Assembly (NCBI GenBank): GCA_025450235.1 | Contig: JANWHX010000117.1 | Span: forward strand, 1-32,793 | DNA from: Chitinophagaceae bacterium | GTDB lineage: Bacteria > Bacteroidota > Bacteroidia > Chitinophagales > Chitinophagaceae | DNA: 32,793 bases | Direction: 5' to 3' | Shown here: in pieces, positions 7,328 to 13,208 of the stretch | How the letters are laid out: the number at the start of each line of letters is the position of its first letter | Position numbering within the stretch: the stretch's first letter is position 1 | Notes under the pieces: generated by a model | The model's input: the letters and a program-made list of their open reading frames with translations, nothing else | Databases searched by the model: none | Told to the model about the DNA's origin: nothing | Made by a program: the position numbers and the translations under genes

Positions 7328-8143
7328 ATGGCATTTAAAAAAATTACGGAGCAACCCAGCAATTACAGGCACCTGGAAAAGATGCCAATTGCTGAACTGC
7401 TGACCAACATCAATAAAGAAGACCAGGTAGTTCCGGCTGCTGTGGCAAAAGCGATCCCGCAGATTGAAAAATTAGTGGAAGTGATCAGCGATAAGATGCT
7501 GATGGGGGGCAGATTATTTTATATTGGTGCAGGTACGAGTGGCCGTCTGGGAATAGTAGATGCCAGTGAATGCCCCCCGACGTATGGAGTGCCAAAAGGC
7601 CTGGTGATTGGTATTATTGCGGGGGGTGAAAAGGCGATTACTTCTGCTGTTGAATTTGCTGAAGATGATAAGGACCAGGGATGGAAAGACCTTGAAAGCT
7701 GGAATGTTTCTGATAAAGACGTTGTCATCGGCATTGCCGCCAGCGGGACTACTCCTTATGTGATCGGTGCTCTTGAAGAATGCCAGAAAAAAGGAATTGT
7801 TACCGGCAGCATATCCTGCAACCCGGATTCACCCGTCAGCGCCGCTGCGGATTTTCCAATTGAAGTAGTGGTGGGGCCGGAATTTGTAACTGGCAGCACC
7901 CGGATGAAAAGCGGGACGGCGCAGAAATTAGTGTTGAATATGATCTCCACTTCCTGCATGATCCAGCTGGGACGAGTGGAGGACAATAAAATGGTAAACA
8001 TGCAACTTACGAACGATAAATTAGTTGACCGTGGCGTGAAAATGCTGATGGAACGATCGCCTATAAAAGACTATGAAGAAGCAAAAAAGCTTTTGCTAAA
8101 GTATGGGAGCGTAAAAAAGGCATCCGAATCAATGGTCCAATAG
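7328..8143 (+). CDS. murQ: N-acetylmuramic acid 6-phosphate etherase
   Basis: 271 aa: GGRLFYIGAGTSGRLGIVDASECPPTYGVP, VIGIAASGTTPYVIGAL, GPEFVTGSTRMKSGTAQKLVLNMIST. Confidence 0.95.
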   Translation: MAFKKITEQPSNYRHLEKMPIAELLTNINKEDQVVPAAVAKAIPQIEKLVEVISDKMLMGGRLFYIGAGTSGRLGIVDASECPPTYGVPKGLVIGIIAGGEKAITSAVEFAEDDKDQGWKDLESWNVSDKDVVIGIAASGTTPYVIGALEECQKKGIVTGSISCNPDSPVSAAADFPIEVVVGPEFVTGSTRMKSGTAQKLVLNMISTSCMIQLGRVEDNKMVNMQLTNDKLVDRGVKMLMERSPIKDYEEAKKLLLKYGSVKKASESMVQ

Positions 8144-8229
8144 TTTTTTTACAGATTTCTTCCCTATATTGTGACTTCAACTCTGCAGTGATAAATACTA
8201 ACAACCATACCGTTTCTTCTTTGATAGCG

Positions 8230-8283
8230 ATGTATGCGGCAGCAACTGCAGCCGTCACTACAACTATTACAACGATCCGCTAA
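8230..8283 (+). promoter_or_regulatory. Candidate threonine-attenuator leader peptide (MYAAATAAVTTTITTIR*) upstream of thrA
   Basis: ATG TAT GCG GCA GCA ACT GCA GCC GTC ACT ACA ACT ATT ACA ACG ATC CGC TAA: 6 Thr and 2 Ile in 17 codons, ~100 bp before thrA, with hairpin ATCCGC-TAA-GCGGAT across the stop codon. Confidence 0.75.
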
Positions 8284-8385
8284 GCGGATTGTACTACACT
8301 ATATTATACCCCGGGCTTCGGCTGATCAAACGAAAATCATATTTATTATTTAGCTTAATTAATTTTAATCATTAAATCGGGATAC

Positions 8386-10830
8386 ATGCAGGTCTTAAAA
8401 TTTGGGGGCACATCGGTTGCCAATGCGGAGAATATCAGTAAGGTGACGGAGATCGTAAGAAAATCAATTCAAAAAGACAAAACAGTTGTTGTCGTTTCAG
8501 CCCTGGGCGGAATTACGGACATGTTGCTTAAAGCCGCCGCGCTGGCAGCGGATGGGGAGGAGAGTTATAAGGAAGAACTATCCCAGATTGAACAAAGACA
8601 TTTGGATACTGTGAAACAATTGATCCCTGTATCACAACAAAGCCCAATGTTAAGCCTGGTGAAGGCAGCATGCAATGAAATTGAAGATATATGCAATGGA
8701 ATTTTTCTGCTCGGGGAGTTAACGGCAAGATCCAAAGACCGCATCGGGAGTTATGGAGAATGGATCTCATCACAGATTATTGCTGCAAAATTCAAAGCGG
8801 AACGGATTGACAATGTTTGGAAAGATGCAAGAGACCTGGTTGTTACCAATTCAAATTTCAGCGCCGCTGAAGTTGATTTTGACAGTACCAATAAAAAGAT
8901 AAAAGATTTTTTTTCAACCCAGAATTCTTCCTTATTTATCTTGCCGGGTTTTATTGCAAGCGATAAGAACGGGATCACGACTACCCTGGGACGGGGTGGT
9001 TCTGATTATACCGCGGCAATTATTGCATCTGCCCTGAATGCAAATAGTCTTGAAATATGGACCGATGTCAGCGGAATGATGACTGCCGATCCGCGGTTAA
9101 CCAGCAATGCACGGATCATCCCGCATATTTCTTACCAGGAGGCCATGGAACTGTCCCATTTTGGTGCTAAAGTCATTTATCCGCCGACAATACAGCCGGT
9201 AATGAATCAAAATATACCGGTGCGGATTAAGAACACGTTCGCCGCAGACGATGAGGGAACGCTAATCGAATCGGTAACAAACAGGAACGGAAACATCGTC
9301 AGGGGAATTTCCAGTATCAATAACATAGCCCTGATAAGTCTTGAAGGAAGTGGTATGGTAGGTATTCCGGGATTTTCTAAAAGATTATTCGAGGCATTAA
9401 GCAACGAAAAGATCAATGTTATATTGATCACCCAAAGCTCATCTGAACATTCTATCTGTGTTGGGATCGATGCTGCATTTTCCACAAAGGCGAAACATGC
9501 GGTTGATACGGCATTTTCCAATGAGATCGCTTTGCAGAAAGTAGATCCTTTACAAATTGAAGGGGACCTGTCAATTGTTGCCCTGGTCGGTGAAAACATG
9601 AAGAGCCATCCGGGCATCAGTGGCCGTATGTTCAGTGCAATGGGTAAAAATGGTATTAATATCCGGGCTATCGCCCAGGGATCTTCCGAGAAAAATATTT
9701 CGGCTGTTATTTCAACCAAAGATGTCCGTAAAGCTATCAACGTTTTGCATGAAGAGTTCTTTGAAACAACGTATAAGCAAATAAACCTTTTCATTGTCGG
9801 AACCGGTAATGTAGGCGCTAAACTTCTCGGACAATTAAATCAACAGGGAAAGTTCCTTTTTGATCAGATGAAATTGCAGTTACGGGTGGTAGGTATCAGC
9901 AACAGTCGAAAAATGCTGATCGATGAGGACGGAATTGGTCTTTCCAACTGGAAGGAGAAATTGGATGCGGCGCCCCCGGCCAATCTCCAAAACTGGGTGA
10001 ACGAAATTATCGCAAGGAATCTTCGTAACTCCGTTTTTGTCGATATAACAGCCAATGATAAGGTGGCTGCCGTCTATGATCAGTTGTTGACCAAAAGCAT
10101 TTCAGTGGTGGCCTGCAATAAAGTAGCCGCTTCTTCAGCATTTGGTAATTATAAAAAACTAAAGGACCTCGCTACTGAATACAACTGCCATTTTCTTTTT
10201 GAGACCAATGTCGGCGCTGGTTTACCGGTGATCGCTACATTGAATGATCTTGTCAGGAGTGGTGACAGGGTGCACCGGATGCAGGCAGTGTTAAGCGGCA
10301 CACTCAATTTTGTGTTCAATAATTATGATGGTACCAGGAAGTTTGCCGAAGTGGTAAAGCAGGCGCAGGACGAAGGGTATACAGAGCCTGACCCGCGTTT
10401 GGATCTTGGTGGGATCGATGTAATGCGAAAGATCATGATCCTGGCACGTGAAGCAGGTGAAAGAATTGAGATGAATGAAATCGCAAATAATTCTTTCATG
10501 CCACCAGCCTGTATGACAGGTGATGTTGATAATTTCTATAAAGAGATGGCGAAGGAGGAGGATCACTTTAAAAAGCTATTTGCCAAAGCCAATGCAGAAG
10601 GCACGAAGCTCAAGTTTGTTGCTTCCTATAATAACGGCCAGGCATCGGTAGGTTTACAGCATATTGATCCGAAACATGACCTTTATCATTTATATGGAAA
10701 AGACAATGTGGTGTTGTTTTATACAGATCGCTACAGCGAACAACCATTGGTCGTAAAGGGTGCCGGAGCGGGAGCGGATGTAACTGCAAGTGGTGTATTT
10801 GCAGATATTATCCGGGCAGCGAAAACGTAG
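8386..10830 (+). CDS. thrA: Bifunctional aspartate kinase / homoserine dehydrogenase
   Basis: 814 aa: MQVLKFGGTSVANAENI...TTLGRGGSDYTAAIIA, ACT region, then FIVGTGNVGAKLLGQL...ETNVGAGLPVIATLNDLVRSGDRVHRMQAVLSGTLNFVFN...EPDPRLDLGGIDVMRK. Confidence 0.97.
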   Translation: MQVLKFGGTSVANAENISKVTEIVRKSIQKDKTVVVVSALGGITDMLLKAAALAADGEESYKEELSQIEQRHLDTVKQLIPVSQQSPMLSLVKAACNEIEDICNGIFLLGELTARSKDRIGSYGEWISSQIIAAKFKAERIDNVWKDARDLVVTNSNFSAAEVDFDSTNKKIKDFFSTQNSSLFILPGFIASDKNGITTTLGRGGSDYTAAIIASALNANSLEIWTDVSGMMTADPRLTSNARIIPHISYQEAMELSHFGAKVIYPPTIQPVMNQNIPVRIKNTFAADDEGTLIESVTNRNGNIVRGISSINNIALISLEGSGMVGIPGFSKRLFEALSNEKINVILITQSSSEHSICVGIDAAFSTKAKHAVDTAFSNEIALQKVDPLQIEGDLSIVALVGENMKSHPGISGRMFSAMGKNGINIRAIAQGSSEKNISAVISTKDVRKAINVLHEEFFETTYKQINLFIVGTGNVGAKLLGQLNQQGKFLFDQMKLQLRVVGISNSRKMLIDEDGIGLSNWKEKLDAAPPANLQNWVNEIIARNLRNSVFVDITANDKVAAVYDQLLTKSISVVACNKVAASSAFGNYKKLKDLATEYNCHFLFETNVGAGLPVIATLNDLVRSGDRVHRMQAVLSGTLNFVFNNYDGTRKFAEVVKQAQDEGYTEPDPRLDLGGIDVMRKIMILAREAGERIEMNEIANNSFMPPACMTGDVDNFYKEMAKEEDHFKKLFAKANAEGTKLKFVASYNNGQASVGLQHIDPKHDLYHLYGKDNVVLFYTDRYSEQPLVVKGAGAGADVTASGVFADIIRAAKT

Positions 10831-10859: not shown

Positions 10860-10880
10860 GCGTGCCGATAGTCGGCATGC
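10860..10880. repeat. Palindrome in thrA-thrB gap (GCGTGCCGA-TAG-TCGGCATGC)
   Basis: 9-bp stem with one G-U pair, 3-nt loop. Confidence 0.7.
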
Positions 10881-10924
10881 CTCATGCATTTTCTATTTAT
10901 TTTAATTCAATAACACGATCGGAT

Positions 10925-11842
10925 TTGAACAAAATCACTGTAAAGAGTCCCGGGACGGTCGCCAACCTTGTATGCGGATTTGATATACTTGGCATGGCGC
11001 TGAATGAACCTTATGATATAATGCATTTAAAATTATTGAATGAGCCAATTGTCGTTATCATCAATAAAGATGATTTTAATTTGCCCACCGAACCCGAAAA
11101 AAACGTAGCCGGCGTTGTTTTGTTATCGATCATTGAAAGGATGAATCACAAAACAGGATTCGAAGTTGTAATTGAAAAGCATATTAAACCCGGAAGTGGT
11201 ATTGGATCAAGCGCCGCAAGTGCTGCAGGTGCTGCTGTGGCAGCGAATCATTTATTGGGAGGCATTTTTTCGCGCGATGAGGTGGTTCAGTTTGCCATGA
11301 ATGGGGAGAAGCTTGCGTCAGGTGTTAAACATGCAGACAATATCGCACCGTGTATTTTGGGTGGCGTCAGTTTGATACGAAGTATTCATCCATTGGACAT
11401 TGTTGCTATTCCTTCGCCTGATCTGTTTGTGACGGTGGTACATCCGCAAATCGAGGTAAGGACATCTGATGCAAGGCAAATATTGAAGAAGCAGGTATTA
11501 CTAAAAGATGCTATCAGGCAATGGGGAAATATTGCAGGTTTGGTAACAGGGTTTCTGAAGAACGACTATGAACTTATTGGCCGTTCGTTAGAAGATGTCA
11601 TCATAGAGCCGGTAAGAAGTATCCTGATCCCCGGATTTGATGAAATAAAAAGGAAGTGTAAAGATGCAGGCGCATTGGGTGGAGGTATATCGGGATCCGG
11701 GCCTTCTGTGTTCATGTTATCCGTAAGCGAAACTATTGCTAAAGCGACAGAAACGGTGATGAAGGAAGTGTACGACAGGCTCGGGATTGAAAACAATACT
11801 TACGTTACGACAATTAACAAGAAAGGGGTTGAAATAATTTAA
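10925..11842 (+). CDS. thrB: Homoserine kinase (TTG start at 10925 proposed; ATG at 10862 or 10877 are alternatives)
   Basis: LNKITVKSPGTVANLVCGFDILGMALNEPYD...EKHIKPGSGIGSSAASAAGAAVAANHLLGG...GALGGGISGSGPSVFMLS: GHMP kinase motifs. Conserved part begins at NKITVKSPGT. Confidence 0.93.
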   Translation: MNKITVKSPGTVANLVCGFDILGMALNEPYDIMHLKLLNEPIVVIINKDDFNLPTEPEKNVAGVVLLSIIERMNHKTGFEVVIEKHIKPGSGIGSSAASAAGAAVAANHLLGGIFSRDEVVQFAMNGEKLASGVKHADNIAPCILGGVSLIRSIHPLDIVAIPSPDLFVTVVHPQIEVRTSDARQILKKQVLLKDAIRQWGNIAGLVTGFLKNDYELIGRSLEDVIIEPVRSILIPGFDEIKRKCKDAGALGGGISGSGPSVFMLSVSETIAKATETVMKEVYDRLGIENNTYVTTINKKGVEII

Positions 11843-11879: not shown

Positions 11880-13208
11880 ATGAAATATTATAGCACAAAT
11901 AAACAATCTCCAGTAGTTGATTTCAGGGAAGCAACGATCAGCGGGCAGGCGCCGGATAAAGGGTTGTATTTTCCTGAAAGTATTCCTTCAGTCGATCAAG
12001 AGTTAATAAGAAACATTGAAAAATATTCAAATGAAGAAATCGCTTTTAGGGTGATCCATCCTTATGTGGCGAATTCAATCGCTGATGAAAAGCTGATGGA
12101 GATCGTGACCGAAACGATCAGCTTTCCTATTCCTCTTGTGCCTGTCAATGAATCCGTTTATTCTCTCGAACTGTTTCATGGACCCACATTGGCGTTTAAA
12201 GATGTGGGGGCAAGGTTCATGAGTCGCTGTCTTGGTTATTTTGTTAAAATGGGTGAGACCCTTCGTCACGGTCAGGCCGGCGGGAGCGGCCAGACCGTGA
12301 CTGTACTTGTTGCCACTTCAGGCGATACAGGCGGCGCCGTAGCAAATGGGTTTTACAATGTGGAAGGAGTTGAAGTAATAATATTATATCCTTCCGGTAA
12401 AGTCAGCCCGGTACAGGAAAAACAATTGACTACATTGGGAAAGAATATTCGTGCTCTTGAAGTCCTGGGAAGTTTTGACGATTGCCAGCAAATGGTAAAA
12501 AACGCATTTGCCGATAAAGAAGTAAACAAAAATCGGTTCCTGACCTCCGCCAATTCAATCAATGTGGCAAGATGGCTTCCGCAACAGTTCTATTATTTCT
12601 TTGCATATAAGCAGTGGCCTGATAGGAACAATCCGCCCGTAATAAGCGTCCCCAGCGGGAACTTTGGTAATATCTGTGCTGGTTTACTGGCAAAACGTTC
12701 CGGGTTGCCGGTAGAGCATTTCATTGCGGCCTGTAATGTCAATGATGTTGTTCCGGAATTCATGAAGACAGAAAGATTTGAACCAAAGCAGGCGATACCC
12801 ACCTTGTCCAATGCAATGGATGTAGGTAATCCAAGCAATTTCGTCCGTATACTGGAAATATTTGCTCATAGTTTTACCACGCTTGAGCAAAATCTCACTG
12901 CTGTCAGTATAACGGACAAAGAAACAACGGATACTATCAGTGACGCTTTTAAACAATACAATTACATACTTGATCCACACGGCGCAGTTGGGTACCTGGC
13001 GTTGAAACGATACATGGGAGCCCATCCCGGCAGTAAAGGTATCTTCCTTGAAACAGCCCACCCGGTCAAGTTTCCGGATGCAGTAGAAAAACATACCGGC
13101 ACCCGGCCGGATATCCCCGCATCGGTGTATAATATTATGAATAATAAAAAGGTAACTGTAAAAATGAAACCGGACTATAAAGCATTGAAAGATTACCTGA
13201 TGAGCTAG
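11880..13208 (+). CDS. thrC: Threonine synthase
   Basis: 442 aa: MKYYSTNKQSPVVDFREA...LELFHGPTLAFKDVGARFMSRCLGYF...TVLVATSGDTGGAVANGFY...SVPSGNFGNICAGLLAKRSGLP...LDPHGAVGYLALK. Confidence 0.96.
   Translation: MKYYSTNKQSPVVDFREATISGQAPDKGLYFPESIPSVDQELIRNIEKYSNEEIAFRVIHPYVANSIADEKLMEIVTETISFPIPLVPVNESVYSLELFHGPTLAFKDVGARFMSRCLGYFVKMGETLRHGQAGGSGQTVTVLVATSGDTGGAVANGFYNVEGVEVIILYPSGKVSPVQEKQLTTLGKNIRALEVLGSFDDCQQMVKNAFADKEVNKNRFLTSANSINVARWLPQQFYYFFAYKQWPDRNNPPVISVPSGNFGNICAGLLAKRSGLPVEHFIAACNVNDVVPEFMKTERFEPKQAIPTLSNAMDVGNPSNFVRILEIFAHSFTTLEQNLTAVSITDKETTDTISDAFKQYNYILDPHGAVGYLALKRYMGAHPGSKGIFLETAHPVKFPDAVEKHTGTRPDIPASVYNIMNNKKVTVKMKPDYKALKDYLMS
12270..12296. repeat. 27-bp palindromic element copy 2, in frame inside thrC (full palindrome 12265-12301)
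   Basis: GGTCAGGCCG-GCGGGAG-CGGCCAGACC; encodes the HGQAGGSGQT stretch just before the conserved TVLVATSGDTGG block. Confidence 0.8.

Follow-up and report, generated by a model that had tools for sequence, protein, structure and literature searches.

A conserved threonine/isoleucine leader peptide upstream of thrA in Chitinophagaceae, a candidate attenuator with a non-canonical output

The 242 bases upstream of thrA in a Chitinophagaceae genome contain a leader ORF with a run of threonine and isoleucine codons and a hairpin enclosing its stop codon. Through this leader the translating ribosome very probably senses the supply of Thr and Ile, and the output is most likely transcriptional, yet not that of a classical switch. 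The original prediction of a Thr/Ile leader-peptide attenuator of thrABC is strongly supported by the codon run, the open frame, the promoter spacing, and four hairpins, all conserved over tens of genomes.

Leader ORF and control codons

The window (the whole stretch of DNA analysed, 32,793 nucleotides, contig JANWHX010000117.1 of assembly GCA_025450235.1) contains the thr operon and, upstream of it, the following elements of the leader.

8165 to 8171, forward strand: TATATTG, a promoter -7-like element (TATMTTG) for the leader transcript; most of 68 relatives have the same element 13–19 nt 5' of the leader start
8188 to 8283, forward strand: leader ORF of 31 codons with a GTG start, VINTNNHTVSSLIAMYAAATAAVTTTITTIR followed by the stop codon
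8206 to 8219, forward strand: 5' motif CATACCGTTTCTTC (consensus CATATCATTTCTTC), coding for HIISSS-like residues
8257 to 8277, forward strand: control-codon run, Thr Thr Thr Ile Thr Thr Ile
8386 to 10830, forward strand: thrA, bifunctional aspartate kinase/homoserine dehydrogenase I (NF006959, 1033 bits against a cut-off of 726)
10862 to 11842, forward strand: thrB, homoserine kinase (TIGR00191, above the cut-off)
11880 to 13208, forward strand: thrC, threonine synthase (TIGR00260, above the cut-off)

Relatives were collected by way of thrA, which was matched in 138 of 200 whole Chitinophagaceae genomes and in 80 named contigs, among them those of Terrimonas, Niastella, Ferruginibacter, Puia, Pseudoflavitalea, and Segetibacter. 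A downstream motif, CATATYA, is present in 89 of the 92 distinct thrA upstream regions, nearly all of which also have a Thr/Ile leader; the exceptions are L111, which is devoid of the element, L037, which is cut by the contig end, and L103, which is degenerate. The alignment of relatives proposed with the original prediction showed a conserved short ORF with a Thr/Ile run, and stems that covary in the partner-swap test described below.

The leader frame is open in all 68 non-redundant upstream regions, with GTG (39), ATG (20), or TTG (7) as the start codon. A 17-codon ORF at 8230–8283 had been put forward as the leader, and it is present as described, but the frame stays open up to the GTG at 8188 and the N-terminus encoded there (VINTNNH.. 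in the window, VINTNSHK.. in genus relatives) is common to the sister sequences, so that 8230–8283 is the second half of the leader rather than an ORF starting at the ATG.

Where the stop codon occupies its usual place (64 genomes), Thr or Ile accounts for 84–98% of the residues at codons -2 to -9, and the run has a sharp edge at codon -10/-11. All four Thr codons occur in it (ACA, 182; ACC, 120; ACT, 107; ACG, 36), and selection therefore acts on the amino acid. The last sense codon specifies Arg in 51 of the 64, because CGT/CGC belongs to the hairpin around the stop codon. The mean Thr/Ile score of the last 12 codons is 6.75 for the real upstream regions versus 2.71 (s.d., 0.76) in dinucleotide shuffles, none of which reached the real median. 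The thr leader provides what is expected of an attenuator, namely a short, presumably translated ORF with a codon run for the product of its operon.

Hairpins and the CATATYA motif

The 8180–8400 region folds with a z-score of -2.1 relative to shuffles, and a prominent component of the fold is the hairpin spanning the leader stop codon, which had been noticed from the sequence and is in fact 9 bp long. The structural elements are arranged in a rigid order, i.e., H0, the Thr/Ile run, H1 around the stop codon, a gap of about 7 nt, CATATYA, H2, H3, and thrA.

8236 to 8256, forward strand: hairpin H0, just 5' of the control codons (-9.6 kcal/mol in the window; family z, -1.5)
8272 to 8292, forward strand: hairpin H1, 9 bp, with the TAA stop codon as the loop (z, -4.4 over 68 genomes)
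8300 to 8306, forward strand: TATATTA, the window form of the single-stranded CATATYA
8313 to 8324, forward strand: hairpin H2, GGGC-loop-GCTG (z, -0.80; s.e., 0.11)
8320 to 8355, forward strand: weak hairpin H3, GGCTGA..TTTAGCT (-3.2 to -3.8 kcal/mol in the window)
8355 to 8368, forward strand: T-rich tail 3' of H3, with no canonical U-run

In the partner-swap test, in which the two arms of a stem are exchanged between genomes and an identity filter removes relatedness only partly, all four hairpins passed as covarying (z, -6.5 for H0, -15.4 for H1, -4.2 for H2, and -4.7 for H3); two control segments were not weakened by the swapping. RNAalifold on the plain alignment recovered H1 alone, missing H2 and H3 because their lengths vary, and the partner-swap test was used instead; a first ad hoc score for H2 had differed only weakly from shuffles. 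H1 occurs in several sequence classes (ACAACCC/GGGTTGT, ACAATCCGC/GCGGATTGT, ACAATCCC/GGGATTGT, ACTCCGC/GCGGAGT, and ACCCTCA/TGAGGGT), and its compensatory changes include one pair that is U-A in 25 and C-G in 33. The leader stop is displaced in a few genomes (L004, L100, and L102), lying 3' of H1 or within CATATTAA, so what stays constant is the hairpin rather than the precise place of the stop. H1 is placed as the ORF-end hairpin of an attenuator should be, where a ribosome at the control codons could disrupt it.

The spacing from H1 to CATATYA is 6–9 nt, and that from the start of CATATYA to the GGG of H2 is 12–13 nt, in nearly all relatives. Sliding folding tests detected structure at H0 and H1, an open region at CATATYA, which is significantly unstructured (z, +0.92; s.e., 0.07), and local structure again at H2 and H3. 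In the window's genus H3 overlaps the 3' arm of H2, and it is more stable in two genus relatives (L005 and L036) than in the window. Near the start of the leader ORF, the 5' motif CATATCATTTCTTC of the window (8206–8219) and its relatives has CATATYA in common with the motif behind H1.

Two alternative pairings had also been suggested, CAGCCG with CGGCTG and TACCCCG with CGGGATA. The strings exist, but the pairings are not conserved, and the duplex tests gave no excess pairing; in the former, CAGCCG sits in the local hairpin H0 and CGGCTG in H2. Segment-by-segment duplex tests across the family likewise revealed no excess pairing of the CATATYA/H2 region with the thrA start or of the H1 arms with downstream RNA, and no alternative pairing by which either the codon run or an arm of H1 would be linked to H2 or H3. 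A mutually exclusive antiterminator of the E. coli thrL type was not found, the overlap of H2 and H3 being seen at the genus level only.

Terminators and the his and ilv leaders

A canonical terminator between the leader and thrA was detected in 10 of the 68 upstream regions, compared with 4.8 expected, and a first scan had given 12 of 89 compared with 9.2. The lack of a good hairpin plus U-run before thrA, already remarked on for the window, is correct and family-wide for thr, but does not extend to his and ilv. These were inspected directly, because leaders for other amino acids would escape a model built from thr arms. The his and ilv leaders of Chitinophagaceae conform to the textbook attenuator, with a run of His codons in the former and of Ile/Val codons in the latter; like the thr leader, they encode a peptide with a codon run for the product amino acid close before the operon, whereas they have strong canonical terminators in 24 of 24 (his) and 13 of 13 (ilv) cases by the same test, counts that exclude leaders without a clear codon run.

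The genome of the window itself has a his attenuator 5' of hisG (L236, positions 74–142; G000, contig C223) with the leader peptide MISTTHIHHHHLTQKVSRDGFM and a canonical terminator at 168–189, GGGCTTACCATATGGTAGGCCT-TTTTTATT. Leaders with an Ile/Val run, such as AIIIVVVVIIIPGTHGGGA, lie near ilv genes in L245, L247, L248, L250–L255, L258–L260, and L262, and have strong terminators (CCCGCCTCC..GGCGGG-T-run).

Across the family, T is enriched 3' of H3 in the thr leaders (p < 0.001), and the enrichment rises with the stability of H3: the 26 most stable H3 hairpins are followed by 4.08 T per 8 nt, compared with 2.96 in random windows taken from the same spacers. H3 looks like a weak, degenerate terminator.

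Distribution in the phylum

A covariance model of H1-CATATYA-GGGC gave 51.5 bits for the thr site in the window's own genome, the next best match (21 bits) lying in unrelated sequence. In a sample of 249 genomes of the phylum, all matches are 5' of thrA, and they include three in f23, a family outside the class. Upstream regions read directly contain Thr/Ile leaders 5' of thrA in families f1, f3, f4, f5, f8, f9, and f23, and none in the other families sampled; H1 and CATAT are present in f4, in most of f5, and in most leader-bearing members of f23.

Proposed mode of regulation

We favour, with a probability of roughly 0.5, a ribosome-mediated attenuator in which H1 and CATATYA pause the polymerase and transcription terminates prematurely at the weak H3. 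A nearly leaderless transcript would begin just after 8171, and the ribosome would initiate at the GTG at 8188 and read the Thr/Ile run at 8257–8277. When charged tRNA-Thr (or tRNA-Ile) is scarce, the ribosome would stall on the run; when the supply is ample, it would reach the stop codon inside H1, and its footprint should melt the hairpin. H1, together with the single-stranded CATATYA ~10 nt behind, may constitute a pause site at which the polymerase is held in step with the ribosome, as far as the geometry suggests. The readout would be premature termination of transcription in the short stretch after H2, at the A/T-rich H3 and the T-enriched tail that follows it, perhaps with the aid of a factor. 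We infer the stalling, the pausing at CATATYA, the termination at H3, and the derepression upon Thr/Ile starvation from the arrangement of these elements.

The reading as an attenuator is based on the conservation of the leader frame and of a codon run whose synonymous codons vary freely, on the covarying H0–H3, the fixed H1-CATATYA-H2 spacing, and the unpaired CATATYA, and on the position of the ORF, always 5' of thrA, as are the strong match in the own genome and the matches in the phylum. A Thr-rich small protein, or a chance ORF with no regulatory role, is scarcely credible: short ORFs are common and the peptide is a predicted one, but the conserved parts are only the Thr/Ile run, its place relative to H1, and the downstream motif, always 5' of the thr operon, and the RNA model gives a single strong site in the own genome and otherwise only sites 5' of thrA.

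A transcriptional output is indicated by the T enrichment behind H3 and the unstructured thrA start, and by the classical transcription attenuation used by the thr leaders of f3 and by the his and ilv leaders of the family. The original prediction had allowed for a translational output, but the lack of structure around the thrA start argues against masking of the start codon. Control of ribosome access to that codon by the leader structure is thus very unlikely, even though in some genomes the 3' arm of H1 is complementary to ATGCAGGTTTTAAA at the thrA start (segment z, -0.67); this pairing was rejected as a candidate, being lost in other H1 classes and hence not covarying. The thrA start region also has no conserved structure, and the distance from the leader stop codon to the thrA start is long, about 70–130 nt.

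Termination at H3 has points against it, in that canonical terminators are close to chance frequency and no pairing coupling the ribosome position to H2 or H3 is seen, so that control of H3 is not visible; H2 and H3 lie side by side in most genomes and do not exclude each other. A classical attenuator with an overlooked antiterminator switch, for example between H2 and H3 both using GCTG in the window's genus, is quite unlikely. H3 is real across the family by the partner-swap test, and in this genus (GCTGAT..ATCAGC plus the T-rich tail) it overlaps the 3' arm of H2, but it begins early enough to do so in only 18 of 65 genomes; the H1 arms show no excess pairing to downstream RNA, and H2 is geometrically too far 3' of the stop codon to be masked by the ribosome.

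The main rival to termination at H3 is Rho or another factor. With ample Thr, the ribosome would leave at the stop codon and Rho would load ahead of thrA, a stalled or slow ribosome preventing this. The stretch from H2 to thrA lacks structure and is poor in G (A, 39%; T, 34%; C, 18%; G, 9%), with no canonical terminator, yet a low G content may be common to 5' regions throughout the family, the T enrichment at H3 suggests intrinsic-like termination, and upstream stalling would leave the same stretch equally exposed; we consider a Rho-dependent output unlikely on balance. Tentatively, the leader might belong to an attenuator class specific to the phylum, devoid of a canonical terminator and antiterminator, in which the target of the ribosome is the polymerase that H1 has paused at CATATYA and termination is weak or factor-assisted. 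It is conceivable, with similar caution, that such a non-canonical output has been kept for thr in a family whose his and ilv leaders rely on classical terminators.

Comparison with known systems and other families

Attenuators in Bacteroidetes were reportedly predicted by Vitreschak et al. in 2004. The element of the window shares with E. coli thrL (Rfam Thr_leader) a short leader peptide with a Thr/Ile run 5' of thrABC and a hairpin close to where the leader ORF ends; in contrast to thrL, it has neither a canonical U-run terminator before thrA nor a visible antiterminator, and it has the stop codon in the H1 loop and the invariant CATATYA behind. No match for the thr leader at the curated score was obtained with Rfam release 15, nor any relevant match in a permissive scan of 7950–8600.

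Attenuation or cis-regulation of amino acid operons has already been proposed in the phylum: the Flavobacterium psychrophilum transcriptome gave clues for leader-peptide attenuation 5' of such operons, mentioned in the main text without detail (PMC9723704), PMC2864571 includes the Bacteroid-trp motif (RF01692), and a Bacteroides thetaiotaomicron map mentions that some long 5' UTRs hold short ORFs resembling leader peptides (PMC7366714). In the main texts, supplements aside, we found no description of the thr element, its stop-codon hairpin, or CATATYA. In Bacteroidota, the cis-regulation of amino acid synthesis has received little attention, and the leader offers a conserved thr attenuator that can be tested there. 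The his and ilv attenuators of the same family are built-in controls for asking what sets thr apart and whether the terminator has given way to polymerase pausing or to a factor. Because the spacing between H1 and CATATYA is rigid and persists even in a second class of the phylum, it offers a concrete handle on pausing by Bacteroidota RNA polymerase.

The thr leaders of f3 (L161–L165), a sister family in the same class, likewise encode a Thr/Ile leader 5' of thrA but have, immediately 5' of thrA, strong T-run terminators with antiterminator partners, e.g., GGAGGAAG with CTTCCTCC, and no CATATYA; judged by sequence, they are the classical counterpart of the window's element. A further variant is seen in f8 (L166–L171), where the stop codon of the Thr leader lies in ACGGGG-TAA-CCCGT-like hairpins, without a canonical terminator. 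In f5 (L133–L143), a TTATAT(C)TTTTTT stretch 3' of CATATAATCC has two possible partners, CATATAAT and a purine-rich segment further downstream, and these alternative pairings may constitute a family-specific switch.
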